A stretch of DNA of 64,000 nucleotides from Chitinophagaceae bacterium (GTDB lineage: Bacteria > Bacteroidota > Bacteroidia > Chitinophagales > Chitinophagaceae), in the NCBI GenBank assembly GCA_947459295.1, contig CANHCY010000005.1:1-64000 (forward strand). The letters run 5' to 3'. A program made the translations under genes and the position numbers. Every line of letters begins with the position of its first letter. The first letter of the stretch is position 1. Below are positions 7,589 to 26,025 of this stretch, piece by piece. The notes below the pieces were generated by a model that saw nothing but the letters and a program-made list of their open reading frames with translations, had not been told where the DNA came from and made no database searches.

Positions 7589-8305
7589 CTAGTAAAACGT
7601 TTTTTTGTTGGTTTTGTTCCAGGTAATGACAATTATAAGTCCTACAAGTGCGCCACCAACGTGGGCCCATCTTGCAACATTGTCGCCAGCTGCATTTTGC
7701 ACCGCACTAAACACTTCAAATCCAAAATAAATAAGCCCTACCCACTTTGCTTTAACGGGTACAAAAAAGTACAAATAGATATAGGTGTTAGGAAACAAGT
7801 AAACAAACGCAGCCAATATGCCAAATACTGCACCACTAGCGCCAAGTGTGGCGGTATTAATGATTTGATTGTACTTGAAAGCAACAGCCTCGTTCATTAA
7901 ACCTAGCTTTTCTCTAGTTTGAAACTCTTGTATTAGAGGTGTTAACTCGTAACTTAAAAACAACAAATGAATAAGTGCTGCACCGAGTCCACAAACAAAA
8001 TAAAAAGTAATGAATCGATTAGAGCCCCATAAATTTTCTAACACTGACCCAAACATCCAAAGGGCAAACATATTACCTAAAATATGGTAAAAATCGCCGT
8101 GCATAAATAAGTGTGTCACCAACTGCCATGGCTTAAATAATTCACTTTGCCAAGCATGTAATGCAAACATATCTTCCAAACTAAAATTTGCAGTGGGTGA
8201 TTCTGGAAATGTGATTTGTGCCAAAAAAAATATCCCATTAATGATTAAAAGGTTTTTAATAACTGCGGGTAATATTTCGAATCTGCTGGGTCTAAATTCT
8301 GTCAT
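7589..8305 (-). CDS. Rhomboid-family intramembrane serine protease
   Basis: 238 residues with six predicted membrane segments. Canonical motifs are HGDFYHILGNMFALWMFG (loop 1/TM2), LGASGAVFGILAAF (Ser nucleophile in GASG) and WAHVGGALVGLI (catalytic His). It is the more canonical of the two adjacent rhomboids. It lies 22 nt after rlmD and 14 nt before the second rhomboid, so all are likely one transcript. Natural substrates cannot be inferred from the sequence. Confidence 0.92.
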   Translation of the reverse strand: MTEFRPSRFEILPAVIKNLLIINGIFFLAQITFPESPTANFSLEDMFALHAWQSELFKPWQLVTHLFMHGDFYHILGNMFALWMFGSVLENLWGSNRFITFYFVCGLGAALIHLLFLSYELTPLIQEFQTREKLGLMNEAVAFKYNQIINTATLGASGAVFGILAAFVYLFPNTYIYLYFFVPVKAKWVGLIYFGFEVFSAVQNAAGDNVARWAHVGGALVGLIIVITWNKTNKKTFY

Positions 8306-8327
8306 ACTGATTTATTAAAAAGTGATC

Positions 8328-9764
8328 TTATCCTACATTCAAAGACTTTAACTTTAACTGCACTACATTTTCTATATGAAGTGTGTGCGGGAACATATCT
8401 ACCGGCTGAATTTTAGTGACCTCATATTTTTCATCAAGGAGCGCTAAATCTCTAGCCTGTGTAGCAGGATTACAACTCACGTATACAATAGTTGGGGCTG
8501 CTATTTCTAATAATTTTTTTACAAGTTTATCGTGCATGCCTGCTCTAGGCGGATCTGTGATAACTACGTCTGGCTTACCATGCGTGGCAAAAAAAGCGTC
8601 ATCTACAATATCAATAACGTCACCAGCAAAAAATGCAGTGTGGTTTAAATTGTTGAGTGCAGCGTTAATTTTTGCATCTTCGATGGCATCAGCTACGACT
8701 TCTACACCCACTACTTTTTTAGCGCCTTCGCTTAAAAAAATACCAATACTTCCAGTACCACAATACAAATCATATACCACTTGCGAACCGTCTAATTCAG
8801 CAAATTCACGTGTTACTTGATACAGTTTTTCGGCCTGCTTGGTATTGGTTTGAAAAAATGATTTAGGACTAATTTTAAACGAAAATTTTTCTAGTTTTTC
8901 GGTGATGCTTCCATTTCCAAAATATGTTTTTGGGTCTAGATCATACAAACTATCATTTCGTTTTGGATTGATGGTATACAGTAATGTTGTAATTGCTGGA
9001 AACGCCGCTAGTAGTTGATCTAGTAATGCAAGGCGGTGTGGTTCATCTTCATAACCAAATACAACATTGATCATAAGTTCACCTGTTGTGGTATTACGCA
9101 CAAACATATTACGTAACCAGCCTGTATGCTGCTTTACATCGTAGTATGGAAGATCATGATCTAACGCATACTGTGCTACCATTTTACGAATGAAGTTGGT
9201 GGGCTCTTCTTGCAAATGACATGTGTCTATCTCTACCACTTTATCAAAAAAACCGCGCACATGAAAACCAGCAGCGCCAGGTTGATTCGAAAAATCGGCA
9301 CCTGCGGCTTTCATTTCCCTAAACAATGCTGAAGGAATATATTTTTTTGTAGCAAACGTGTATTCCATTTTATTGCGGTACAACTCCGTTTGACTCGCCC
9401 CAATAATGGGGTTAATAGCCGGCAAGTGAACGCGTCCAATTCTGGTTAAATTATCTGTTACTTGCTGTTGTTTATACACGAGTTGTTTTGCATAAGGAAG
9501 CATTTGCCACTGACAACCTCCACAAATACCAAAATGCGTACAAAAGGGCTGCACCCGGTCTTCGGAATAGGATTTAAAGGATACCACAAAGCCTTCTGCC
9601 CAATCGGCCTTATTTTTTTTGAGTTGCACATCTACAACATCGCCAGGTACGGCGCCTTCAATAAATACCACTTTGCCATCTACACGTGCTAATGCCTTGC
9701 CCTCAGCTGCATAGTCTTGTACCAATACCTGTTCTAAAATGGGCTGTCTTTTTTGTTTTCTCAC
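8328..9764 (-). CDS. rlmD: 23S rRNA (uracil-C5)-methyltransferase, RlmD/TrmA family
   Basis: 478 residues from the GTG at 9764. An upstream in-frame TTG at 9773 is possible but lies inside the -7 promoter element. A TRAM domain occupies ~10-70 and a [4Fe-4S] cysteine cluster reads CTHFGICGGCQW. The SAM site reads YDLYCGTGSIGIFL, followed by DPPRAGM and YVSCNPATQARDL with the catalytic Cys. The family methylates U1939 or U747 of 23S rRNA, or U54 of tRNA; 23S rRNA is favoured by the TRAM domain and cluster. It is the first gene of the run to cysS. The TATATTTG box at 9771-9778 makes the transcript effectively leaderless. Confidence 0.9.
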   Translation of the reverse strand: MRKQKRQPILEQVLVQDYAAEGKALARVDGKVVFIEGAVPGDVVDVQLKKNKADWAEGFVVSFKSYSEDRVQPFCTHFGICGGCQWQMLPYAKQLVYKQQQVTDNLTRIGRVHLPAINPIIGASQTELYRNKMEYTFATKKYIPSALFREMKAAGADFSNQPGAAGFHVRGFFDKVVEIDTCHLQEEPTNFIRKMVAQYALDHDLPYYDVKQHTGWLRNMFVRNTTTGELMINVVFGYEDEPHRLALLDQLLAAFPAITTLLYTINPKRNDSLYDLDPKTYFGNGSITEKLEKFSFKISPKSFFQTNTKQAEKLYQVTREFAELDGSQVVYDLYCGTGSIGIFLSEGAKKVVGVEVVADAIEDAKINAALNNLNHTAFFAGDVIDIVDDAFFATHGKPDVVITDPPRAGMHDKLVKKLLEIAAPTIVYVSCNPATQARDLALLDEKYEVTKIQPVDMFPHTLHIENVVQLKLKSLNVG

Positions 9765-11296: not shown

Positions 11297-12250
11297 TTAC
11301 ACCAATTCTTTAACGGCGTTAAAGATAACTTTTGGTTTTCCGAGTGTATAATAGTGTAGTACAGGTACGCCAAATGCTTTGAGCTCCCTACTTTGCTGTA
11401 TCAACCATTCGGTTCCTACTTGCTCACAATCTGCATCTGTTTTACATTTATTAATCGCATTAGAAAGTTCTGTTGGAATATCTACATGGAATATTCGGGG
11501 CAAAACAGAGAGCTGTTTTTTATTGGTAATAGGTTTAAGTCCTGGTATGATAGGAACGCTAATACCCATATCCCTACAGGCTTTCACGAAATCATAAAAT
11601 TTTTGATTGTCAAAAAACATTTGTGTCATGATGTAGCTTGCGCCTTCATCCACTTTGTTTTTTAAATGCTTTAAATCAATTTCTAAATTCGGTGCTTCAA
11701 AATGTTTTTCTGGATATCCGGCAACGCCCACACAAAATTTTGTTTGGCCGCCGTTTTTAATATCTTCATCTAAATAAACACCGTTATTCATGTTATTTAC
11801 CTGCTTAATTAAATCGATGGCAAAATGATTGCCATCTTTTTCAGGTTCAAAAGATGACTCATTTTTTGCAGCGTCCCCTCTTAACACAAGTGCATTGTCT
11901 ATCCCTAAAAAGTCTAAATCAATGAGCGCATCTTCCGTTTCTCTTTTCGTAAATCCACCACAAATAATGTGTGGAATGGCGTCCACTTGGTAGTGGTTCA
12001 TAATAGCCGCACAAATACCAACAGTACCAGGGCGTTTTCGCACTTCTACTTTTTCAAAAGTACCATCTACCTTTTTCTTAAACATGGTTTCACTACGGTG
12101 GTAGGTTACATTAATCCAAGAAGGTTTAAACTCCATTAAAGGGTCTAAATGCTCATATAAAGTATTGATGGTTTTACCTTTTAATGGAGGTAAGACTTCA
12201 AAAGAAATAAGGGTGTCTTTTGCCTGCTGTAAATGATCCGTTACTTTCAT
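11297..12250 (-). CDS. metF: Methylenetetrahydrofolate reductase
   Basis: 317 residues from the ATG at 12250, giving MKVTDHLQQAKDTLISFEVLPP. The frame is open to 12298, but that leader is not conserved and covers the promoter. It is a TIM-barrel flavoprotein with ISFEVLPPLKG near the N-terminus, INVTYHRSE, and ALVLRGD before a long insertion. The ASYIMTQMFFDNQKFYDF segment carries the folate/FAD-site residues of the family. It reduces 5,10-methylene-THF to 5-methyl-THF for methionine synthesis. The gene stands alone, with its own promoter at 12271-12299. Confidence 0.95.
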   Translation of the reverse strand: MKVTDHLQQAKDTLISFEVLPPLKGKTINTLYEHLDPLMEFKPSWINVTYHRSETMFKKKVDGTFEKVEVRKRPGTVGICAAIMNHYQVDAIPHIICGGFTKRETEDALIDLDFLGIDNALVLRGDAAKNESSFEPEKDGNHFAIDLIKQVNNMNNGVYLDEDIKNGGQTKFCVGVAGYPEKHFEAPNLEIDLKHLKNKVDEGASYIMTQMFFDNQKFYDFVKACRDMGISVPIIPGLKPITNKKQLSVLPRIFHVDIPTELSNAINKCKTDADCEQVGTEWLIQQSRELKAFGVPVLHYYTLGKPKVIFNAVKELV

Positions 12251-12270
12251 GATTGCTGCTTTATGGGGGG

Positions 12271-12299
12271 CAAATATAAAAATTGTTATAGTAAACAAA
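12271..12299 (-). promoter_or_regulatory. Promoter of metF
   Basis: On the minus strand, TTTG at 12296-12299 and TATATTTG at 12271-12278 are separated by 17 bp. The ATG is 20 nt downstream, giving a leader of about 15 nt. Confidence 0.6.
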
Positions 12300-12362
12300 T
12301 ATAAAGGTATTATAAAAGGTTAAGATGTAGCAAAACCTGATACACAAAAGGCTTATAAGCCC

Positions 12363-12370
12363 TATTTTTG
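12363..12370 (+). promoter_or_regulatory. -7 element upstream of lptB
   Basis: TATTTTTG fits TAnnTTTG and lies 15 nt before the TTG start codon at 12386. No convincing -33 TTTG is seen at the usual spacing. Confidence 0.35.
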
Positions 12371-12385
12371 TAGAAAGCAACTATT

Positions 12386-13156
12386 TTGAACGGAATCATA
12401 CATACAAGTGCGCTCCAAAAAAGTTACAAGGGCAGAACCGTTGTAAACAACGTAAGCGTAACAGTAAAACAGGGTGAAATTGTAGGTTTACTTGGGCCCA
12501 ATGGTGCTGGTAAAACAACTACTTTTTATATGGTGGTGGGTCTTATTAAACCGGACGAAGGCACGGTATTTTTAAATGAAGAAGACATTACAAAGCTACC
12601 CATGTACAAAAGAGCACAAATGGGTATTGGCTATTTACCTCAAGAAGCAAGCGTTTTTAGAAGCCTCAGTGTAGAAGACAATATTTTAGCGGTACTGGAA
12701 ATGACTTCGCTTTCTAAAGAAGAAAGATTATTAAAATTAGAATCTTTGCTCGACGAATTTAATTTACAACTCGTTCGAAAAAATAATGGAGATAGTTTAA
12801 GTGGTGGCGAAAGACGAAGAACAGAAATCGCGAGAGCACTAGCGGTGGACCCAAAATTTATTTTATTAGATGAACCATTTGCAGGCGTTGATCCAATCGC
12901 AGTAGAAGATATTCAAACCGTAGTAGCTAAATTAAAAACAAAAAATATTGGGATTTTAATTACAGACCACAATGTAAATGAAACCTTATCGATTTGTGAT
13001 AGAGCCTACCTATTAATTGAAGGAAAAATATTTAAGCACGGAACTGCCGAAGAATTAGCAGAAGATGAAGACGTACGACGTTTATATTTAGGAACCAATT
13101 TTACGCTACGTAGAAAAGATTGGATTATTGAAATGGGAAAAGAAGCTAAGCTTTAA
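12386..13156 (+). CDS. lptB: Lipopolysaccharide export ABC ATPase LptB
   Basis: 256 residues of ABC ATPase starting at a TTG (12386); no in-frame ATG exists before the conserved core. Walker A is GPNGAGKTT, the Q-loop region is [14 protein letters not shown], the signature is [16 protein letters not shown], Walker B is [13 protein letters not shown], and the H-loop is [17 protein letters not shown] and [12 protein letters not shown] are diagnostic of LptB, which powers LPS extraction from the inner membrane with LptFG. The C-terminal ~15 residues ([15 protein letters not shown]) extend past the usual ATPase end. It is followed after 5 nt by the GH3-like gene, an arrangement seen in other Bacteroidota. 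Confidence 0.94.
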
Positions 13157-13161
13157 TTCAC

Positions 13162-14679
13162 ATGAAATTTTTAAGTCCTGCCATATCACGACTTGCCCTT
13201 TTAAGAATTGCGCATATTGAAAGATGGGTTGCAAATCCTGTAGCAACACAAAGAGAAGTGTTACAAGATTTAGTGACGCATGGACAGTACACATCCTTTG
13301 GTAGAAAATATGGTTTCAACGAAATATTTAATATCCGAAAATTTAAAGAAGCCGTTCCAATTAGTGAATACGAAGATCTGAAACCCTTTATTGATAGGCT
13401 TTTTGAAGGAGAAGAGCAAGTGCTATGGAATACACCTGTACATTGGTTTGCAAAAAGTAGCGGCACCACTTCAGACAAAAGCAAATTCATTCCAATCACC
13501 GAAGAAAGTTTAGAAGATTGTCATTACCAAGCAGCAAAAGATGTATTAGCGCTATATTATAAATTTAACAATGATAGTGATTTACTAACTGGTAAGGGGC
13601 TCGTAATTGGTGGAAGTCATCAAATAAGTAAGATCAACGACGACATTAGTGTGGGCGATTTAAGCGCCGTACTACTTCAAAATACACCCATGTGGGCCAA
13701 CTGGATTCGCACACCAGAATTATCCATTGCACTCATGGATGAATGGGAAACAAAAATTGAACAGCTAGCACAATCTACCATTCTTGAAAATGTAACTTCT
13801 ATATCTGGCGTTCCTACTTGGACACTTTTACTCATTAAAAGAATTTTAGAAATTACAGGCAAGCAAACTTTAAAAGAAGTGTGGCCAAGTTTAGAATTAT
13901 ACATTCATGGTGGTGTTTCTTTTACGCCCTATAAAGAGCAGTTTCAAAAATTAATTGGACCCGGTTGTCATTACTTAGAAATGTATAATGCCTCCGAAGG
14001 TTTTTTTGCAGCGCAAGATGACCCAAGTGTAGAAGGCATGCTTTTGTTTTTAGACCATGGTATTTTTTATGAGTTCATGCCCACCGAAGAATACGGAAAA
14101 GAAAAACCGCGCACTATTGGACTAGATAAAGTGGAGCTTGATAAAAATTATGCACTTGTCATTAGCACCAATGGTGGCCTATGGCGCTATTTAGTAGGTG
14201 ACACGATTAAATTTACAAGTCTTTCGCCTTACCGAATTGTAGTAACGGGGAGACTCAAACAGTTTATCAATGCTTTTGGCGAAGAAGTGATGGTAGATAA
14301 TACTGACAAAGCCATCGCAGCTGCAGCAAAAACTACAGGGCTTGTGGTGAAAGATTATACGGCTGCACCCATTTATTTTGGAGATCAAAACCAAGGGGCA
14401 CACGAATGGCTTATCGAATTTGAAAATACGCCGGAAAACCTAAGCGCCTTTACAATAGCGCTAGACCAAAACTTAAAATCCTTAAATAGCGACTACGAAG
14501 CCAAACGTTACAAAGACATCGCACTTGGGCTTCCAAAAGTTACCGCCCTACCGGGGGGATTGTTTCATACATGGCTTAAAAATAAAGGAAAACTGGGGGG
14601 GCAGCATAAAGTGCCAAGACTCAGCAACGACCGCAGGTACATCGATGAATTATTGTTGCTTTTACAACAATATGCATAG
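13162..14679 (+). CDS. GH3-like acyl-adenylate-forming protein
   Basis: 505 residues of the GH3 auxin-responsive-promoter family in the acyl-adenylate (ANL-like) superfamily. The ATP/phosphate loop reads FAKSSGTTSDKSKFIP (near 95-110), then GGVSFTPYKEQF, LEMYNASEGFF (adenine-site motif), LWRYLVGDTIKF (substrate/ATP Asp) and TGRLKQFINAFGEEV. In plants GH3 enzymes join amino acids to jasmonate or auxin; the bacterial role is unknown. Close coupling to lptB (5 nt) suggests an envelope or lipid-related task, which is inference. Confidence 0.88.
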   Translation: MKFLSPAISRLALLRIAHIERWVANPVATQREVLQDLVTHGQYTSFGRKYGFNEIFNIRKFKEAVPISEYEDLKPFIDRLFEGEEQVLWNTPVHWFAKSSGTTSDKSKFIPITEESLEDCHYQAAKDVLALYYKFNNDSDLLTGKGLVIGGSHQISKINDDISVGDLSAVLLQNTPMWANWIRTPELSIALMDEWETKIEQLAQSTILENVTSISGVPTWTLLLIKRILEITGKQTLKEVWPSLELYIHGGVSFTPYKEQFQKLIGPGCHYLEMYNASEGFFAAQDDPSVEGMLLFLDHGIFYEFMPTEEYGKEKPRTIGLDKVELDKNYALVISTNGGLWRYLVGDTIKFTSLSPYRIVVTGRLKQFINAFGEEVMVDNTDKAIAAAAKTTGLVVKDYTAAPIYFGDQNQGAHEWLIEFENTPENLSAFTIALDQNLKSLNSDYEAKRYKDIALGLPKVTALPGGLFHTWLKNKGKLGGQHKVPRLSNDRRYIDELLLLLQQYA

Positions 14680-14714
14680 CTAAAATTCGTTCTACATATC
14701 TATAAATACTGGAT

Positions 14715-15470
14715 ATGAAATTACTAGCAGGCAAAGTCTCGATCGTAACAGGTGCAGCCCGTGGAATTGGCGCTGCAATTGCATTAAAATTAGCAGAACA
14801 AGGAAGCCATATTGCATTTACCTACGTTAGTAGCGGTAGTGCCGAAAAAGCAAATGCTTTAGTAAGCCAAATTGAAGCCCTGGGTGTTAAAGCAAAGGCA
14901 TATCAAAGCAATGCAGGTGTTTTTGAGGAGTGTGAAGCCTTTGTAAATGATGTAGTAGCAAGTTTTGGAACTGTTGATATTTGCGTAAACAATGCAGGTA
15001 TTTCAAAAGATAATTTATTGCTCCGCATGAACGCAGAACAATGGGATGAAGTGATGGACACCAACTTAAAGAGTGTGTTTAACATGACTAAGCAGGTTAT
15101 TAGACCCATGATGAAAGCGAGGTCTGGTAGCATCATCAACATGAGTTCAATCATAGGTATTAGAGGCAATGCAGGCCAAAGCAGTTATGCCGCTAGTAAA
15201 GCGGGTATTATTGGGTTTACCAAATCTGTGGCCCTAGAACTTGGAAGTAGAAATATTAGGTGCAATGCCATTGCCCCTGGTTTTGTTGAAACCGACATGA
15301 CCCATTATTTAAAAGAAGGGGAAGCCGCTACCGCTTTTTTAAGCAAAATACCATTAGGTAGGTTTGGAAAAGCAGAAGAAATCGCCAACACGACGCTCTT
15401 TTTGGCGAGTGACATGAGTTCCTATGTAACCGGTCAGGTAATTAGCGCCTGTGGCGGTTTAAACATTTAA
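14715..15470 (+). CDS. fabG: FabG-like 3-oxoacyl-ACP reductase (SDR)
   Basis: 251 residues of classical SDR. NAD(P) motif TGAARGIG (12-19), NNAG (~92-95), and catalytic Ser-Tyr-Lys in MSSIIGIRGNAGQSSYAASKAG. The C-terminus PLGRFGKAEEIANTTLFLASD..SYVTGQVISACGG matches FabG, which reduces 3-ketoacyl-ACP in fatty-acid elongation. A second FabG-like paralogue with another substrate cannot be excluded. It is 35 nt after the GH3-like gene, same strand, and probably in the same transcript. Confidence 0.88.
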   Translation: MKLLAGKVSIVTGAARGIGAAIALKLAEQGSHIAFTYVSSGSAEKANALVSQIEALGVKAKAYQSNAGVFEECEAFVNDVVASFGTVDICVNNAGISKDNLLLRMNAEQWDEVMDTNLKSVFNMTKQVIRPMMKARSGSIINMSSIIGIRGNAGQSSYAASKAGIIGFTKSVALELGSRNIRCNAIAPGFVETDMTHYLKEGEAATAFLSKIPLGRFGKAEEIANTTLFLASDMSSYVTGQVISACGGLNI

Positions 15471-15482
15471 ATAAAACATTGA

Positions 15483-15567
15483 TTGTCAAAACGTTGTCAA
15501 ATAAAGCCTATAAACATGTTAAACTATTTAACACTCCAATTGTTGTAATACCCGGGTGTTATATTTG
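15483..15567 (+). promoter_or_regulatory. Patterned promoter region of the SulP/carbonic anhydrase operon
   Basis: The region holds TTGTCAAA twice with an 11-bp period (15483-15490, 15494-15501) and a perfect 6-3-6 palindrome GTTAAACTATTTAAC (15518-15532). A TTG at 15540-15542 is a plausible -33 element, and TATATTTG (15560-15567) is the -7 element, 17 bp further on. An ACCCGGGT palindrome (15550-15557) lies inside the spacer and extends with one mismatch to 14 bp. The density of symmetric elements suggests regulated transcription; the regulator is not in the window. Confidence 0.55.
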
Positions 15568-15576
15568 TAGATCATC

Positions 15577-15882
15577 ATGAAGCGAAACTTAATAAATATC
15601 ATTTTAATGGGAGTACTCCTAATACAGGTATTGCCCGTTCGTGAAATTGGTGAAATGCTATTTGACAATCAACTAAATGAAGAAATCAACTGTTCGGGCT
15701 CAAGCATCAAAGAATTGAGCAAATGCAACGACTCATATGTTGACAACCAAGACCCAATAGTTCATTACGACCTTAGCATGCATAGTGGTTTACCAACTTC
15801 ATATGCTGCATTTCAGGCGATCATACCTGTTCACCATACGAGTGATGTACCCGTCCCGCCTCCCAACAAATTATTTGTATAA
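15577..15882 (+). CDS. Small exported protein of unknown function
   Basis: 101 residues, not recognised. Residues 5-20 are hydrophobic (LINIILMGVLLIQVLP) and look like a signal peptide or anchor. The mature part is polar with two cysteines (Cys39, Cys50), and the end reads VPVPPPNKLFV, proline-rich. The promoter -7 box lies 9 nt before the ATG. It is the first gene before the SulP operon (59-nt gap, no terminator), so it is probably co-transcribed and may be a partner or secreted product of that system. No domain can be assigned. Confidence 0.6.
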   Translation: MKRNLINIILMGVLLIQVLPVREIGEMLFDNQLNEEINCSGSSIKELSKCNDSYVDNQDPIVHYDLSMHSGLPTSYAAFQAIIPVHHTSDVPVPPPNKLFV

Positions 15883-15941
15883 GCACAACAGCATATATAC
15901 TAGTTCAACTAGATTAATTTGGGTTTTATCAAATACAATAA

Positions 15942-17498
15942 ATGAAAAAATTATACGCACACTTGGGTGACAACATTTCTGCATCCATTGTAGTACTACT
16001 GGTAGCGCTGCCACTTTGTGTTGGCATTGCGTTAGCATCTGGTACACCAATTTTTTCAGGTATTATTGCGGGCATTATTGGGGGTATTGTAGTTGGACAA
16101 TTAAGCGGATCACAGTTAAGCGTATCTGGGCCCGCGGCCAGCTTAACATTTGTGGTTTCTGCCATGCTTATTAAATTAGGAAGTTTTGAAACTTTTTTGT
16201 TAGCTGTTTTAATTGCCGGCGCTTTTCAAATTTTATTTGCTTTTTTAAAAGGCGGTATTGTAGGTGACTATATTCCCAATGCTGTGATCAAAGGAATGGT
16301 TGCTGCAATTGGAATTATTTTAATGATGAAACAAATTCCGCACTTACTTGGTTATGATGCAGATTTTGAAGGGGATGAATCATTTTTACAAGACGATCAT
16401 AACAACACCATCACCACTATTTTAACAGCGGTAGAGTTTTTGACACCCATGTCAGTGCTCATTGGTTTCGTGTCTCTTATTCTATTAATACTTTGGGAGC
16501 AATTCAATTACAAGAGTAGCAAATGGGTACATTATGTGCCAGGGCCACTCGTTGTTGTACTTTTAGCAGTAGCACTTAACACCTTTGGTGCTCCGCTATT
16601 AGATATGATACCACTTGAACAAAAACACTTGGTATCGTTACCGGTTGCTAATAATATGAAGGAATTTTTATCGTTTTTTACCTTTCCTAACTTTCATGAA
16701 ATTGGAAATCATGAGGTTTGGTTAGCCGGATTTATGCTGGCCGTGATTGCCTCACTTGAAACGCTTTTGGGCATTGAGGCTGTCGACAAATTGGATGCCT
16801 TAAAAAGAGTAACACCATCTAATCAAGAATTAAAGGCGCAAGGAATTGGAAATATACTTTCTGGTTTAATTGGTGGCCTCCCTATTACTTCGGTAATTGT
16901 TAGAAGCTCAGCCAATGTTAGTGCTGGTGGTAAAACAAAACAGGCTGCTATATTTCATGGAGTGCTCATATTAGTGTGTGCAGCATGTATACCTTTTTTG
17001 CTCAATAAAATACCTTTAAGCGCTATCGCAGCTATACTTATTGTAACGGGATATAAAATTGCAAGAATAAGTTTGTTTAAAGAGATGTTTAAAAAAGGGT
17101 TCAATCAGTTTATTCCTTTTTGCATTACAATCATTGCAATTTTATTTAGCAATTTATTATTAGGTATTACTATTGGAATTATTGTAAGTGTCATTTTTAT
17201 TATTCGTGGTAATTTTAAATCTGCCATTTTAATGATACAAGACAATAATCAATATCTCATCAGATTTAGAAAAGATATTACGTTTTTAAATAAAGCTATA
17301 ATCAAACAAAAATTAGAGTCGCTTCCCAATAATTCTTTTGTATTAATTGATGTTAAAAAAGCCGATTTTATTGACAAAGATGTCATTGATGAAATAAATG
17401 ATTTTTTATGTCACGTTCATTTAAAAAACATTTCAGTATCGTTTAGTTTACATGAATACAATCCCAACCATTTGCTCATAAATTATACAAAAAAATGA
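15942..17498 (+). CDS. SulP-family anion transporter
   Basis: 518 residues with 10-14 membrane segments. The N-terminal region ALPLCVGIALASGTPIFSGIIAGIIGG and SGPAASLTFVV is the SulP signature. A C-terminal STAS-like domain (~420-518: NNSFVLIDVKKADFIDKDVIDEINDFL) is present but short. SulP proteins carry sulfate, bicarbonate or other anions. The next gene is a beta-carbonic anhydrase overlapping by 4 nt (ATGA), which makes bicarbonate the likely substrate. It is the second gene of a six-gene run. Confidence 0.9.
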   Translation: MKKLYAHLGDNISASIVVLLVALPLCVGIALASGTPIFSGIIAGIIGGIVVGQLSGSQLSVSGPAASLTFVVSAMLIKLGSFETFLLAVLIAGAFQILFAFLKGGIVGDYIPNAVIKGMVAAIGIILMMKQIPHLLGYDADFEGDESFLQDDHNNTITTILTAVEFLTPMSVLIGFVSLILLILWEQFNYKSSKWVHYVPGPLVVVLLAVALNTFGAPLLDMIPLEQKHLVSLPVANNMKEFLSFFTFPNFHEIGNHEVWLAGFMLAVIASLETLLGIEAVDKLDALKRVTPSNQELKAQGIGNILSGLIGGLPITSVIVRSSANVSAGGKTKQAAIFHGVLILVCAACIPFLLNKIPLSAIAAILIVTGYKIARISLFKEMFKKGFNQFIPFCITIIAILFSNLLLGITIGIIVSVIFIIRGNFKSAILMIQDNNQYLIRFRKDITFLNKAIIKQKLESLPNNSFVLIDVKKADFIDKDVIDEINDFLCHVHLKNISVSFSLHEYNPNHLLINYTKK

Positions 17499-18130
17499 AA
17501 ATCTACGAAAAACTACTTTTAGAAAATAAGGCTTGGGCAGAAGAACGTAAACTTGATGATCCTGGATTTTTTTCTAGGCTTTCTGAAATTCAAACCCCAG
17601 ATTTTTTATGGATTGGGTGCAGCGATAGCCGTGTGCCAGCCAACGAAATCACAAATACGCAGCCCGGCGAAATTTTTGTACACAGAAATATTGCCAACAT
17701 GGTAGTGCATACCGATGTTAATTTATTAAGTGTACTAGACTATGCGGTTACGTATTTAAAGGTAAAACATGTAATTGTGTGTGGGCACTATGGATGTGGT
17801 GGTGTTAAAGCTGCTATGTCAAACCACAGTTACAATAAAATATTAAACATGTGGCTCAAAAATATAAAAGATGTTTACAGGTTTCATAAAACAGAACTTG
17901 ATACACATACCAATGAAGAGCGCAAGTTTGACCGTCTCGTAGAATTAAATGTACAAGAACAGGTTTTACAATTATCTAAAACTTCTATTATACAAAAAGC
18001 ATGGCAAAATGAACAAAGGCCTCACCTTCATGGTTGGGTGTACGGTTTAAAAGATGGTATTATCAAACCCGTATTTGAAATGGAAGCATGTTCAGAAATA
18101 GACCCTTTATATAAATATGATGACTTATAA
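17495..18130 (+). CDS. Beta-carbonic anhydrase
   Basis: 211 residues. Zinc ligands and catalytic dyad are intact: Cys42-Ser-Asp44-Ser-Arg46 (CSDSR), His98 and Cys101 (GHYGCGG). Length and the HRNIANMV segment fit the bacterial Can/CynT type. It interconverts carbon dioxide and bicarbonate in the cytoplasm. It overlaps SulP by 4 nt and the ABC gene by 14 nt, implying coupled translation. The pairing with SulP resembles bicarbonate uptake pairs known in other bacteria; the link to the export genes downstream is unusual. Confidence 0.93.
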   Translation: MKIYEKLLLENKAWAEERKLDDPGFFSRLSEIQTPDFLWIGCSDSRVPANEITNTQPGEIFVHRNIANMVVHTDVNLLSVLDYAVTYLKVKHVIVCGHYGCGGVKAAMSNHSYNKILNMWLKNIKDVYRFHKTELDTHTNEERKFDRLVELNVQEQVLQLSKTSIIQKAWQNEQRPHLHGWVYGLKDGIIKPVFEMEACSEIDPLYKYDDL

Positions 18131-19799
18131 GAAAATTACACCGATTGTAGCTGCTAGAAAATTAGTAGCCATTTTACAGCTTGACAAAAAAGAAGTGTCA
18201 GCAATTTATATTTATGCCATACTTGCTGGACTAGTTCAGCTTGTTACGCCCCTTGGCATACAAAGTATAATTGGATTTGTAATGGCAGGTGCGCTATCCA
18301 CTTCGATTGTGGTGCTTATTGCCGTTGTTGTATTAGGCGTTTTTTTAAACGGCCTTTTTCAAATCAGACAACTTCAGATTATTGAAAAAATCAAACAAAA
18401 AATTTATACCAGGGACGCCTTAAGTTTTGCGCACAAAATTCCACATTTGAATATTGAAAAATTAGACAACTACTATTTGCCAGAACTTGTCAATCGATTT
18501 TTTGATACCATTACTTTACAAAAGGGTATTGAAAAGATTTTACTAGAAATTCCTGCGGCTTTTATTCAAATTTTGTTTGGTATCATTTTATTATCACTTT
18601 ACCATCCAGTGTTTATTGCCTTTGGTATTGTACTAGTTGTGCTTTTATATGTTATACTAGCAACAACGCTACCAAAAGGTTTTACTAAAAACTTATTGGC
18701 TAGTGATTATAAATACAAAACAGCAGCATGGCTACAAGAATTAGCAAGGGTAGTAAAAACCTTTAAATATGCTAAAAAAACATCTTTGCACATTGATAAA
18801 ACAGATGATTTAGTTAGTAACTATTTAGTTGCACGCACAAGCTACTTCAAAATTTTATTAACGCAGTTTTGGAGTCTTGTGGTATTCAAAATTATTATTA
18901 CTGCATCCATGTTAATTGTGGGTGTTTACTTGTTACTCAATCAGCAAATTAATATTGGTCAATTTATCGCTGCAGATATTGTAATTCTTGCCGTTATTAG
19001 CTCTGTAGAAAAATTAATACAAACATTAGATAAGGCATACGATACCTTAACAGCAATTGAAAAACTAGATAAAATTAAAAGTGCCGAACTAGAAAGTGCT
19101 GGCACTGAAATAATTGCAGAATCAAATGGGATGAAAATTGATTTCAAAAATGTTTCATTTCATTATCCAAACGGTAAAAATGTATTATCTGAAATTAATT
19201 TAGAAGTACAACCTGGAGAAAAGGTATTGATTGTTGGTAATTCAGGTTCCGGAAAATCAACCTTGCTGCGCTTACTTACTGGAACTTACACAAATTTTAC
19301 TGGCGCTATAAGAATTAATAATATAGCCTTAGGTAGCTATTCCATTGACTCTCTAAGGTCTAGTACCGGGGTGCTTATCAGTCAACAAGATATTTTCCAA
19401 GGTACCATACGAGATAATATCACGATGGGAGATAAAAATATCAGCAATGAAGAGTTGTATCAACTTACAAAATCTACAGGACTGGAATCATTTATTGGTG
19501 AATTAGAAATAGGTTTTGACACCGATATTGATCCAGCAGGCAAAAAGCTTCCAGAAAAAATTAAACAAGGGGTGCTCTTAGCTAGGGCGCTGTTTTGTAG
19601 AAAAACATTGTTACTATTAGAAAATCCTTTTGATGGATTAGAAGATAGTACCATTGAATCTGTAAAAGAAATGATGGCTAAATTAGAAAATGTAACAATA
19701 CTTGTTACTGCTGGAAATAATGCACATCAAGAAATTTTTGATAAAATTATTTATCTAGAAAATGGATCTATTGTTTCATTTCAAAGTAAAAATAAATAA
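18117..19799 (+). CDS. ABC exporter-like protein with degenerate ATPase
   Basis: 560 residues laid out as a type I exporter without an N-terminal C39 peptidase. The membrane domain spans ~27-300 and the nucleotide-binding domain ~335-555. Walker A is intact (GNSGSGKST, 374-382) and the Q-loop present (SQQDIF, 422-427). The signature LSGGQ is replaced by LPEKI (478-482). Walker B plus catalytic Glu reads LLLLEN (498-503) instead of hhhhDE, and the H-loop His is lost (LVTAGN, 529-534). ATP binding is possible but hydrolysis looks crippled. It is followed by HlyD (2-nt gap) and TolC. It may act as a gated membrane component, or work with another ATPase. Confidence 0.85.
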   Translation: MMTYKKITPIVAARKLVAILQLDKKEVSAIYIYAILAGLVQLVTPLGIQSIIGFVMAGALSTSIVVLIAVVVLGVFLNGLFQIRQLQIIEKIKQKIYTRDALSFAHKIPHLNIEKLDNYYLPELVNRFFDTITLQKGIEKILLEIPAAFIQILFGIILLSLYHPVFIAFGIVLVVLLYVILATTLPKGFTKNLLASDYKYKTAAWLQELARVVKTFKYAKKTSLHIDKTDDLVSNYLVARTSYFKILLTQFWSLVVFKIIITASMLIVGVYLLLNQQINIGQFIAADIVILAVISSVEKLIQTLDKAYDTLTAIEKLDKIKSAELESAGTEIIAESNGMKIDFKNVSFHYPNGKNVLSEINLEVQPGEKVLIVGNSGSGKSTLLRLLTGTYTNFTGAIRINNIALGSYSIDSLRSSTGVLISQQDIFQGTIRDNITMGDKNISNEELYQLTKSTGLESFIGELEIGFDTDIDPAGKKLPEKIKQGVLLARALFCRKTLLLLENPFDGLEDSTIESVKEMMAKLENVTILVTAGNNAHQEIFDKIIYLENGSIVSFQSKNK

Positions 19800-19801
19800 G
19801 A

Positions 19802-21094
19802 ATGAAAGCGTATAACAATATTTATCAAATAGAGAAAGAGAATAGAATTACTAGAGTATTTGTTATTCTACTAATTGTCATGGTTGTTATTTTGTTTTTG
19901 CCGTGGACACAAAACATTAGGGCTAAAGGCAGTATCACCACATTAAAACAAGAACAAAGAAGACAAGAAGTGAATACCATTATTGCTGGTAAAGTGGTAA
20001 AATGGTGGGTAAGAGAAGGGGATGCTATTAAGGCAGGTGATACCATCATGCAATTAAGCGAGGTAAAAGTAGAATATTTAGATCCTCAGTTATTAGAAAA
20101 AACCAGGGCTCAAATTCAAGCCAAAGCTGCTGCCATTGAAGGTTACACTAGAAAAGGTGAAATGGCAGGTAAACAAGAGCGGGCCCTAGGAGAACTTCAG
20201 CTCATTAAACTGGACCAACTTAAAATCAAACAACAGCAACTACAATTAAAACTAATTTCAGATAGCATGGAATTGGTTGCTCAAATCAATGAATTACAGG
20301 TTACTAAAAGACAAATTGATGCTGCTAAAAACATGTTGGATAGTGGTGTAATTTCATTAGTGGATTTTGAAAGAAGAAAAGTGAATTATCAAAATGCATT
20401 TGCTAAAAAAACAGCAGCAGAAAATAAGTATGCACAATCAAAACAAGAAACCCTAGCATTATTATTTGAACAAAGCAGTATTTTACAGGACTACAATGAT
20501 AAAATAGCAAAAGTAAATGGCGATAAATTTACAGCAGGTGCAGATCAGGCAGTTGGTATGGGTGATTTAGCAAAACTTGAAAATAACTACGCTAATTATG
20601 ACGTGAGAAACAAACTCTACTACATCATTGCACCTCAAACTGGACAAATTACAAAAGCTAAAAAAGCGGGTATTGGGGAATATGTTAAAGAAGGTGAGAT
20701 GATTGTAGAAATTGTTCCCAAAGACATTAAATACGCCGTAGAGCTATTTGTTGAACCCATGGACTTACCCCTCATTAGTAAGGGACAAAAAGTGAGGTTT
20801 ATTTTTGATGGCTTCCCTGCCATCGTTTTTAGCGGATGGCCCAATAGTTCATATGGTACTTTTGGCGGGGTTATTACTGTCATCGAAAATGGTATCAGCG
20901 AAAATGGGAAATTTAGAGTTTTAGTTTCTGAAGACTATTCCGATAGCCCATGGCCTAAGCAATTAAAATTTGGTGGAGGCGCCAATGGCATAGCACTCTT
21001 AAATGATGTTAGCATTGGTTATGAACTTTGGAGAAATATAAACGGATTCCCACCAGAATATTATCAAGCAAAAGTTGAAACGACGAAAAAATGA
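19802..21094 (+). CDS. HlyD-family periplasmic adaptor
   Basis: 430 residues. One membrane anchor (~18-37: VFVILLIVMVVILFLPW), a lipoyl-like half-motif GKVVKWWVREGDAIKAGDTI (~62-81), then a long alpha-helical hairpin (~95-220, rich in Gln, Lys and Ala). The second lipoyl half (APQTGQITKAKKAGIGEYVKEG) and a beta-barrel follow. Membrane-fusion proteins of this type join an inner-membrane exporter to TolC. It lies 2 nt after the ABC gene and overlaps TolC by 4 nt, so the three form a predicted tripartite complex. Confidence 0.9.
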   Translation: MKAYNNIYQIEKENRITRVFVILLIVMVVILFLPWTQNIRAKGSITTLKQEQRRQEVNTIIAGKVVKWWVREGDAIKAGDTIMQLSEVKVEYLDPQLLEKTRAQIQAKAAAIEGYTRKGEMAGKQERALGELQLIKLDQLKIKQQQLQLKLISDSMELVAQINELQVTKRQIDAAKNMLDSGVISLVDFERRKVNYQNAFAKKTAAENKYAQSKQETLALLFEQSSILQDYNDKIAKVNGDKFTAGADQAVGMGDLAKLENNYANYDVRNKLYYIIAPQTGQITKAKKAGIGEYVKEGEMIVEIVPKDIKYAVELFVEPMDLPLISKGQKVRFIFDGFPAIVFSGWPNSSYGTFGGVITVIENGISENGKFRVLVSEDYSDSPWPKQLKFGGGANGIALLNDVSIGYELWRNINGFPPEYYQAKVETTKK

Positions 21095-22476
21095 GTTATC
21101 TAAAGCAAATATTACTGCTCCTATTGATATGCACAAAGGGATTTGGTCAACAGCTTACCTATACTGAATTTATAGATCAGGTTAAAAAAAACCACCCCCT
21201 TAGTAAACAAGCAAAGATTGTTGTTGATAAGGCAAGCGCCGATGCTATGATTGCTCGGTCAAACTTTGATCCTACTATCGGGTTTCAATCTGATATGAAA
21301 ACCTTTGATGGAAAAAATTATTTCAATTATCAAAATACGGAATTAAAAATTCCAACATGGGCTGGTATAGACATCAGTACAGGGATTGAAAGCAATAGAG
21401 GACAATTTTTAAATAGTGAAGTATCTAAAGGACAAAGTAGCTACTTGGGCATAAGTGTGCCAGTCATTAAAAATTTAGTGATTGACAAAAGAAGAGCTGC
21501 CGTATTACAAGCCAAAAACTTAATACTGGCCAGCGAGCAAGAAAGACAATCAATTGTCAACAACCTCTTATTGGATGCAAGTTTACAATATTGGAAATGG
21601 GCTGCTCAATACCAACTTCTTAAACTATACAATCAATATGTAGTCACTTCAAGCAATAGGTTTAATATTACTAAAATTGCATTCAATAATGGAGAAAGGG
21701 CTTCACTTGATACCCTAGAAGCATTGACACAATTACAGCAATTAAAAATATTAGAAAACGACGCTGATTTACTTTTTACCAACGCAGGTATAGAACTATC
21801 CTATTTTTTATGGGATAATCAGGATAGTGCCTTACAGTTAAGCCCTACGATGATACCTGACACGCTAAACAGTAAGCAAATTTCTATCGAAAGCGGCATT
21901 GCCGACTTAATTAGTTTGTCAATACTTCAAAATCCAGAAGTGCGTGCTTATGAGTACAAAATCAATAATTTAATCATTGAAAAGAAATTGAAATTTCAGT
22001 CGCTGCTCCCCATGTTAAATGTAAAATCAAACATTTTAAACCAAAACTACAACGTATTTAAAGATGCGGGTTCTCAGTTTTACCAGAACAACTATAAGTT
22101 TGGTGTAGATTTTAAAATGCCTTTATTTTTAAGAGAAGGTCGGGGAGAGTACAGAAAAGCAAAACTAAAAATAGAAGAAACGAACTTGGCTTTTGCTGCT
22201 AAAAAGATTGAGGTACAAAACAAAGTAAAAACCTACAGCAACGAAAACTTTTTCCTAAAAAATCAATTGGAAACACTTTTCACCATCAACAATAATACTA
22301 ATACGCTACTTAAAGGAGAACTTATTAAGTTTTTCAATGGAGATAGTAATTTATTTGTTGTTAATGCCCGGGAAAATAAGGTAATTGAAACTGCAGAGAA
22401 ACTTATTTCTCTGCAGTTCAAAATTGTTAAATCATATTATGGACTTAAATGGGCTAGCGGAACCATTAATCAATAA
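21091..22476 (+). CDS. TolC-family outer membrane channel
   Basis: 461 residues with a signal peptide ending at ~19-20 ([10 protein letters not shown]). Two long coiled-coil repeats of the outer-membrane efflux type are seen; the helix around [25 protein letters not shown] and the later [17 protein letters not shown] segment are typical of TolC helices. It forms a trimeric outer-membrane and periplasmic duct. It is the last gene of the SulP-to-TolC run, and its 3' end overlaps the opposing VPS10-type gene by 11 nt. Confidence 0.85.
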
Positions 22477-25689: not shown

Positions 25690-26025
25690 TTAATAAAATA
25701 AATAACGCTTAGCACTATTACGCCAGCCGGCCTGACTTTCATAATCTACAAAGAAGATTTTGACATCGGCTTGGCTTTCATAGTCTACAAAAAAGATTTT
25801 CTTTTTTGCTTGTGAAGCATAAGAAGTAAAAAACCATTTTCCGTTATTATCACCGGCTTGGCTTTCATATTTTACTTTGAAAACTTTTAAATCAGCCTGA
25901 CTTTCGTATTTAACAACAAAAACTTTTACATCTGCTTGGGATGCATAGTCTACCGCAAATATTTTTTGCGCTTTTAAAGTACCTACAAATGCGAACAGAA
26001 AAATGATTAAGCCTAATTTTTTCAT
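25690..26025 (-). CDS. Six-repeat exported miniprotein, probable 7(1) septoil-knot domain
   Basis: 111 residues. The signal peptide ends at TLKAQ (20). Residues 21-102 are six copies of a (K)(I/V)F.VxYxSQA unit, with the Tyr at 27, 40, 53, 69, 82 and 95: two sets of three 13-residue units joined by a GDNNGKWFF linker. This repeat pattern matches what I know as the 7(1) septoil-knot family (also seen under DUF6150 names) of Bacteroidota, small proteins whose chain forms a seven-crossing torus knot. Function is unknown. It is 20 nt upstream of the VPS10-type gene and 47 nt downstream of the DUF4838 gene on the same strand. Confidence 0.75.
25720..25965 (-). repeat. Intragenic 39-bp repeats (six units)
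   Basis: The coding DNA for the six YxSQA units is itself repetitive: imperfect 39-bp units, with one 48-bp interval after the third copy. The codons for Tyr-x-Ser-Gln-Ala are best kept. This indicates growth by internal duplication. Confidence 0.75.

Follow-up and report, generated by a model that had tools for sequence, protein, structure and literature searches.

A degenerate ABC exporter with HlyD and TolC partners is associated with inorganic-carbon genes in Bacteroidota

We analysed a 64,000-nucleotide stretch of DNA (the window) from a Chitinophagaceae bacterium (assembly GCA_947459295.1, contig CANHCY010000005.1, positions 1 to 64,000), whose genome is a 2.3 Mb draft, 83% complete, with its closest named relatives at the locus of the Sediminibacterium type. 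The subject is a row of genes on the forward strand in which a degenerate ATP-binding cassette (ABC) exporter, an HlyD adaptor and a TolC channel, called the trio below, stand behind an anion transporter and a carbonic anhydrase (CA). The row begins with an open reading frame (ORF) for a small protein of 101 amino acids (aa), PPPN, at 15577..15882, which has a hydrophobic N-terminal segment, a variable middle and the C-terminus VPPPNKLFV. It is followed by a SulP/SLC26-family anion transporter (15942..17498, 518 aa; PF00916, E 4e-54), a beta-CA (17495..18130, 211 aa; PF00484, E 2e-54), the ABC half-transporter (18117..19799, 560 aa; Pfam ABC_membrane and ABC_tran), the HlyD-type periplasmic adaptor (19802..21094, 430 aa; PF13437 (HlyD_3), E 4e-12, and TIGR01843, E 5e-19, below the TIGR01843 cut-off), and the TolC-type outer-membrane channel (21091..22476, 461 aa; PF02321 (OEP), E 8e-31). 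A first-pass annotation of 15483..22476 had named the five larger genes, and Pfam confirmed the family of each; the overlaps and spacing it gave (-4, -14, +2 and -4 nt by ORF coordinates, from SulP to TolC) were exact. Its range also holds the 101-aa ORF, which it had not listed. This ORF ends 59 bases before SulP and is a member of the same unit, which, judged from gene spacing, is likely to be a single transcript.

The two carbon genes were examined individually. The SulP protein had its best PDB match in 5da0 (SLC26Dg), and also matched BicA (6ki1). It scored 105.9 bits against the BicA model NF050096, for which the cut-off is 880, and its assignment is to the SulP superfamily (PF00916); bicarbonate is its likely substrate. 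A second SulP, 48% identical to the first, lies on another contig of the same genome. The CA carries GCSDSR and HYGCGG, the zinc-binding motifs of beta-CAs, belongs to the Pro_CA family, and has 1ddz and 1i6o as PDB relatives. In a protein search of the 83%-complete draft that covered the beta class of CA, it was the sole match of its family.

To place the locus, the surroundings of the ABC gene were surveyed in 161 loci, made up of the window, 23 named records and 137 genome regions, with four distant records left out. Counts are given for the 160 loci (156 distinct ABC sequences) in which an ABC ORF was found; the remaining one, L120, has no ABC ORF according to the ORF caller, though tblastn detects its transmembrane domain (TMD). 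Named records L038-L058 were assigned to the Chitinophagaceae set by an ABC identity of at least 46%, and the titles of L041 (Sphingobacteriales) and L047 (Thiotrichales) differ from this assignment. ABC relatives at E <=1e-50 were found in 75 of 296 genomes across the phylum and in 160 of 394 Chitinophagaceae genomes, and a flavobacterial query found them in 69 of 120 Flavobacteriaceae, with one genome per genus. This second family is taken as Flavobacteriaceae since the ABC protein of its central genome is identical to one from Aegicerativicinus sediminis. HlyD was near the ABC gene in 155 of 160 loci and TolC in 152 of 160, at positions +1 and +2/+3, respectively. The conserved unit in these comparisons is the ABC-HlyD-TolC trio. 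The marine strains Dokdonia sp. MED134 and D. donghaensis also have close relatives of the degenerate-type ABC protein (P0132, P0136, P0157 and P0163), at 68-69% to the flavobacterial query. Close ABC relatives are labelled "peptidase domain-containing ABC transporter" in public records, although no N-terminal extension is present in the 560-aa type.

The commonest neighbours outside the trio were TetR (46 loci), CA (40), FabG (35, reflecting local synteny) and SulP (30). TetR, supported by PF00440 in both loci scanned, is the only other frequent partner proper to the trio. Lying just upstream, it is the usual partner outside Chitinophagaceae, where 30 of the 46 TetR loci fall among the 54 loci not in the Chitinophagaceae set. 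TetR and the carbon genes are nearly exclusive: 45 loci had TetR only, 42 had SulP or CA only, one had both, and 72 had neither. No recurrent substrate, biosynthetic or precursor gene was seen beside the trio in the loci examined, with neighbours judged by cluster and by eye. The first-pass annotation had regarded constant linkage of the export genes to an unrelated substrate gene as fatal to its reading, and no such gene is fixed there in the loci examined.

The contiguous, same-strand order of SulP (-2), CA (-1) and ABC recurred in 16 of 160 loci and is not confined to the window's genome. The first-pass annotation had also named an order limited to this one genome, with independent promoters for the export genes, as grounds for refutation, and this does not hold. 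Fifteen of these loci are in the Chitinophagaceae set, and one, L105, lies outside the window's class and has an ABC protein of 781 aa; L053 and L065 come from the same genome, and L050, L052 and L057 are truncated within the trio. CA occurred without SulP in 12 loci, the contig ending just before CA in L045 and L047. In L175 and L184 the trio is followed by a PPPN ORF, SulP and CA, in L068 it faces SulP and CA on the opposite strand, and in L168 CA and SulP on the opposite strand are divergent from it. Two CA matches flank a single trio in L152, L168 and L068. Mapped on the ABC tree (154 rows), the SulP/CA label changed 15 times, with at least 13 changes forced by supported branches. A fixed five-gene machine was therefore rejected, given that the trio is widespread, that these changes are forced, and that some loci have only CA, only SulP, or neither of them. 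The five-gene operon proposed at first survives as a recurrent order, which is merely one arrangement in a shifting association around the trio.

This association extends to other carbon transporters. SbtA, identified by PF05982 in L042 (E 4e-115) and unrelated to SulP, was near the trio in 10 of 160 loci from 8 genomes, where it is divergent from the trio, lies immediately ahead of it in the same direction, or follows TetR. Coordinates put 16 SbtA copies, from 15 Chitinophagaceae genomes, within about 10 kb of an ABC gene (from 21 SbtA places picked by eye as on the same contig as ABC; two of the 16 are fragments), and four Flavobacteriaceae copies are within about 4 kb. Of the additional loci, L205-L213 were chosen for SbtA nearby by coordinates, and L214-L216 because the genome has DabA. 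L209 holds PPPN-ABC-HlyD-TolC-SulP-CA-SbtA in a single row, and in the Flavobacteriaceae loci L205-L208 the trio is found together with SbtA and a LysR regulator, and in three of them with TetR too; no carbon gene was found near the trio in L214-L216. DabA, which is part of a complex that hydrates CO2, was near the trio in L170, L177, L186, L161 and L077, and DabB in L172, with Pfam confirming DabB in L170. The DabA model matched the genomes of L170, L177, L186, L172 and L161 near those places, the L077 assignment being by BLAST only, and eight Chitinophagaceae DabA genes are within about 12 kb of an ABC gene by coordinates. A TerC-family membrane protein lies between the trio and DabAB in L170 (11811-12554; PF03741), L177 and L186.

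Sixteen SbtA loci distant from the trio were also examined, three of which come from trio-less genomes. LysR was within a few genes in 10 of the 16, and SbtA in L226 and L227 converges on a unit made up of a small or PPPN ORF, SulP and CA. A conserved LysR (PF00126/PF03466 in L187) was observed near the trio or SbtA in L187, L140, L134, L138, L141, L197, L077, L175, L184 and L205-L208; it is possibly a carbon-responsive regulator. A recurrent protein of 81-103 aa also lies near LysR and sbtA (L229:6077-6370 (-), L230:4665-4940 (+), L206:7416-7727 (-) and L222:4007-4252 (+)), with no Pfam match in the three scanned.

Genome-wide counts point in the same direction as the gene neighbourhoods. Among the 394 Chitinophagaceae genomes, 64 have SbtA and 160 the trio, and 62 have both, where 26 would be expected (Fisher p 1e-25). 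DabA, counted above the model cut-off with two weaker matches dropped (one from a trio genome), was found in 45 genomes, 29 with the trio versus 18.3 expected (p 5e-4). In the 120 Flavobacteriaceae, SbtA was found in 17 genomes and the trio in 69, with 16 having both versus 9.8 expected (p 5e-4), and all five DabA genomes have the trio (p 0.06). Counted by genus in Chitinophagaceae (101 genera), 22 of 24 SbtA genera have the trio versus 13.5 expected (p 3e-5), as do 20 of 26 DabA genera versus 14.7 expected (p 0.01). Within the window's genus (10 genomes sampled), trio and SbtA are found in the same five genomes and are both missing from the other five (p 0.004). SbtA tracked the trio more than DabA did in Chitinophagaceae (62 of 64 versus 29 of 45, p 8e-6). 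The window's genome has SbtA on another contig, and a DabA model search of this 83%-complete draft found no DabA.

One explanation for these counts is shared lifestyle or descent, in which trio and carbon genes alike characterise aerobic, free-living Bacteroidota and came to lie close by without cooperating. The genomes are not phylogenetically independent and the co-occurrence counts ignore kinship. In one clade, moreover, the FabG-(PPPN)-SulP-CA block is synteny of long standing. The genes upstream of the operon (11297-15470; methylenetetrahydrofolate reductase, LptB-like ABC ATPase, GH3 and FabG-like, named by eye) likewise represent old synteny, found by BLAST homology in many Chitinophagaceae-set loci. 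Shared lifestyle or descent would have to account for at least five arrangements that involve unrelated carbon transporters and were seen in two families and in a single genome from a further class, as well as for the concordance at genus level and within the window's genus. SbtA and DabA are each associated with the trio and not with one another (9 Chitinophagaceae genomes with both versus 7.3 expected), which speaks against a mere inorganic-carbon lifestyle. KdpA was considered as a lifestyle control and was too rare to use, with matches in 1 of 120 genomes. We regard this explanation as improbable. The trio shares both neighbourhoods and genomes with uptake systems for bicarbonate and CO2, and neighbourhoods with CA; its association with inorganic-carbon genes is well supported by these comparisons, and a functional tie to inorganic carbon is very probable. 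The first-pass suggestion of a carbon module functionally joined to a three-part envelope conduit is borne out in that the link recurs with SulP and CA, SbtA, and DabAB, and in the genome-wide co-occurrence with SbtA. Its further ideas, anion movement across both membranes and secretion controlled by pH/CO2, stand as conjectures.

The ABC protein was then compared with its relatives, with motif positions read by alignment. The window protein has an intact Walker A, LLLLENP as its Walker B and LPEKI as its signature, and it lacks the H-loop His, so the description "degenerate" given at first was right. In the Chitinophagaceae set (102 full-length sequences, 98 distinct ones aligned), 97 of 102 retain the Walker A Lys, as do 48 of 50 other sequences. 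The Walker B Asp has become Glu in 96 of 102, the H-loop His is absent in 99 of 102, and the signature glycines are mostly gone. The residue after the Walker B Asp position is Glu in 72 of 102; in the window protein it has changed from E to N. Walker B Asp, the Glu after it and the H-loop His were together in 0 of 102 Chitinophagaceae-set sequences versus 11 of 50 other full-length sequences, and these 11 fall in an outgroup clade of 12 proteins, mostly longer. The L105 protein is of this outgroup type with canonical motifs. By sequence motifs, the nucleotide-binding domain (NBD) does not look hydrolysis-competent, and ATP hydrolysis by the trio ABC is probably lost or vestigial.

The domains also differ in conservation. 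Mean pairwise identity for the TMD versus the NBD was 0.600 versus 0.420 in Chitinophagaceae and 0.529 versus 0.331 in 37 other degenerate members, compared with 0.465 versus 0.432 in the outgroup, most of which has a canonical Walker B and His. The NBD was less conserved than the TMD in 5110 of 5110 Chitinophagaceae pairs, 662 of 662 other degenerate pairs, and 36 of 66 outgroup pairs. These results bear on whether the trio is a normal type I secretion system, with an ABC that hydrolyses ATP through unorthodox residues and exports a protein or peptide. AlphaFold2 predicted a type I exporter fold with six long transmembrane helices for the window ABC (predicted local distance difference test (pLDDT) 80, predicted template-modelling score (pTM) 0.67), nearest to the PCAT1 core (TM 0.84), with HlyB (8dck) at rank 19 (TM 0.83). 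The best NCBIfam profile by E-value was type_I_sec_LssB, far below its cut-off. Against this classic fold stand the alteration of Walker B, signature and H-loop together, an NBD less conserved than the TMD in all degenerate pairs (30 of 66 outgroup pairs show the opposite), four loci with no NBD, and the lack of a substrate gene. Normal secretion thus seems a poor fit, and we consider it quite improbable. The first-pass annotation had read the trio as a type I secretion machine, and its genes are indeed encoded together; because the ATPase motifs have decayed, it is probably not a normal machine of this type.

The four loci carry TMD-only ABC genes (L118:7962-8981; L119:7983-8987 (-); L121 7989-8990; L120 about 7998-8975) in open frames of 334-349 aa. 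In L118, L119 and L121, a TMD ORF of 333-339 aa is directly followed by HlyD and TolC, and a search confined to the locus found no significant NBD match near the TMD gene. L120 has a weak NBD match (E 8e-4) about 3.4 kb off on the other strand. TMD residues N126, R127, K136, K199, Y200, E298, K299 and K316 are present in nearly all 139 degenerate proteins, in most of the 12 outgroup proteins, and in nearly all of the three NBD-less proteins. Since these residues are common even to proteins with no NBD, the membrane part seems to retain its function as the ATPase decays. Residues N126, R127, K199, Y200 and E208, in probable coupling loops, are likewise conserved even in the three NBD-less proteins aligned. 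Their conservation, together with a retained Walker A and lost hydrolysis residues, would suit a sensor or scaffold in which what is left of the nucleotide-binding domain responds to the energy or pH/CO2 state and controls how active the carbon transporters or the TolC duct are. Such a sensor would leave the near-constant retention of HlyD and TolC unexplained, and the NBD can be lost outright, so we give this role little probability.

The small protein at the head of the operon was found to be one of a type. Among 421 ORFs of 70-160 aa in the loci, 38 combine a hydrophobic N-terminus with PPP near the end, and 33 of the 38 (near-duplicates included) lie directly before SulP (17), ABC (13) or CA (3) on the same strand. 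An ORF of this type is in that place in 31 loci and in 0 of 46 TetR loci. In 31 distinct sequences, the residue after PPP is N in 25, D in four and R in two, with the stop 2-5 residues after PPP. Neither Pfam nor NCBIfam gave a match for the window protein. In L175 and L184, ABC and SulP are each preceded by a PPPN copy, so that both units carry a leader of the same type. The architecture matches that of arrest-peptide upstream ORFs, small, with a hydrophobic N-terminus and a C-terminal proline motif, directly upstream of a gene. A SecM-like RNA hairpin behind the PPPN ORF was considered and rejected, with a mean z of -1.23 in 29 regions versus -1.19 in 90 of 191 controls (p 0.51); given no signal in RNA structure, a stalling role for PPPN is inferred from architecture. 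PPPN probably represents an upstream ORF whose exported product adjusts translation of the next transporter gene, in place of TetR, and the window ORF is a candidate regulatory upstream ORF.

Published upstream ORFs offer a comparison, here as described in parts of the papers concerned. CutF, an upstream ORF with a signal and a proline motif, controls the next gene, and its proline motif alone gave no stalling in the sensor used in that work (PMC9973294). A survey of arrest peptides describes upstream ORFs with C-terminal prolines near sec genes, confined to Bacteroidota (PMC10987492). PPPN resembles the CutF/SecM-like cases (PMC9973294, PMC10987492, PMC12992588), so far as these excerpts go, in being a small, probably exported protein with a C-terminal proline motif directly upstream of a gene. 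It differs in its motif, PPP[NDR] near the stop, in its host genes (an anion transporter or ABC), and in showing no excess RNA structure.

Expression signals in the window were also searched for. A TATATTTG box at 15560-15567 was spotted by eye, with no match there to the spaced Bacteroidota promoter pattern, whose window-wide count was not above chance. Sigma-70-like sites in the window were rarer than in shuffles, and terminator-like sites were commoner (18 versus 8.9); those on the + strand inside ABC (19571-19591) and HlyD (20806-20825) were not accepted as real. Rfam gave no match at gathering scores. Elsewhere in the window, at 25690-26025 (-), a 111-aa protein consists of repeated YxSQAD-like units (DUF6150).

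We tentatively suggest that the trio is a trans-envelope conduit without ATP-hydrolysis drive, recruited to inorganic-carbon handling, perhaps for bicarbonate across the outer membrane. The ABC would no longer pump by ATP hydrolysis and would serve as the membrane base of the HlyD-TolC duct, perhaps gated by ATP binding through its retained Walker A. What crosses the outer membrane through the duct may be bicarbonate, or a small solute whose movement accompanies that of bicarbonate. SulP or SbtA would then import bicarbonate and CA would equilibrate it with CO2 for carboxylases, with PPPN tuning translation of the transporter gene behind it, in place of TetR. SbtA requires the bicarbonate ion, while DabA uses permeable CO2. 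The tighter tracking of the trio by SbtA fits a bicarbonate route across the outer membrane, a fit and not a proof.

Several observations weigh against a bicarbonate conduit. DabA, which as a user of CO2 should need no outer-membrane duct, is also linked to the trio, so a bicarbonate duct is not uniquely required. Ducts of HlyD and TolC normally run from the inner membrane straight to the outside, bypassing the periplasm. SbtA is missing from 98 of 160 Chitinophagaceae trio genomes, 117 of 160 trio loci have no SulP or CA within seven genes, and the kinship of the genomes noted above applies here as well. The 72 of 102 proteins that keep Glu at the catalytic position after the change of D to E may have residual ATPase activity. 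Finally, the TolC tip motif (family consensus GESSLFLVNSRE) is common to relatives with an active-looking ABC. The TolC constriction was therefore rejected as a sign of anion selectivity, since the outgroup shares the tip motif (read in the E. coli TolC register, aligned by eye). Passage of bicarbonate or another anion, as opposed to another cargo, is on this evidence somewhat unlikely.

The trio may instead export a small molecule or peptide when carbon uptake runs or CO2 is short, using residual ATPase or another drive, with the carbon genes sharing its regulation and not its cargo. In favour of this, HlyD/TolC systems generally export, 46 of 160 trio loci come with TetR, a regulator typical of small-molecule efflux, and nearly all sequences (97 of 102 and 48 of 50) retain the Walker A Lys. 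An exporter of this kind is harder to reconcile with the lack of a recurrent biosynthetic or precursor gene beside the trio, with the loss of ATPase motifs, and with the three loci where the TMD gene abuts HlyD and TolC and no NBD remnant was found. We hold it to be a serious possibility, short of an even chance; export of another solute under carbon limitation and the bicarbonate conduit appear about as likely as one another.

The trio shares its six-helix fold with NBD, its HlyD adaptor, its TolC channel and its gene order with HlyB-HlyD-TolC type I secretion and PCAT1-like exporters. It departs from them in the loss of ATPase residues, in an NBD that evolves faster or is absent, in its link to carbon genes, and, in the window, in an ABC with no N-terminal extension and no substrate gene seen beside it. 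In vertebrate epithelia, CFTR (ABCC7) is associated with SLC26 exchangers and carbonic anhydrase, and the window likewise places a partly degenerate ABC beside an SLC26/SulP transporter and a CA. Unlike CFTR, the window's ABC is a bacterial half-transporter with HlyD and TolC, and homology is limited to the ABC and SulP superfamilies. A retained Walker A with lost hydrolysis residues is compatible with, and no proof of, an ATP-gated anion conductance like that of CFTR. TAP, TM287/288 and CFTR keep one consensus site in a heterodimer. The trio ABC resembles these degenerate-site type I exporters, in which one of two sites is degenerate (PMC7756269, in the part consulted), in having lost Walker B, H-loop and signature residues. 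It is unlike them in that the locus encodes no ABC subunit besides the degenerate one, and a homodimer would therefore have two degenerate sites. By analogy, the non-hydrolysing ABC with HlyD and TolC might form a gated bicarbonate channel across both membranes, working with SulP, SbtA or DabAB and CA and set by exported PPPN stalling peptides, as an independent counterpart of CFTR-SLC26-CA; we think this full picture unlikely.

The individual protein families are known, and as far as searched, their combination and the decayed ATPase are undescribed; no description of the association between the trio and carbon genes was found in titles and abstract starts of the papers listed by open-access literature searches. 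A review of the autotroph toolkit for dissolved inorganic carbon names SulP/BicA, SbtA, DAC/DAB and CA, and its main text has 0 matches for "outer membrane", "porin", "secretion" or "Bacteroid" (PMC10880623). The window and its relatives carry SulP, SbtA, DabAB and CA like that toolkit, and differ from it, as far as that text goes, in the tripartite conduit linked to them here. Outer-membrane passage of charged inorganic carbon is rarely asked about, and the toolkit as reviewed in that main text names no outer-membrane part (PMC10880623). Decay of the ABC to a TMD-only protein with HlyD and TolC kept would show that a TMD-HlyD-TolC assembly is useful without hydrolysis. The pattern suggests an unrecognised envelope component of inorganic-carbon handling in Bacteroidota, and a link between bicarbonate transporters and a tripartite conduit in two families would add a missing layer in common heterotrophs.

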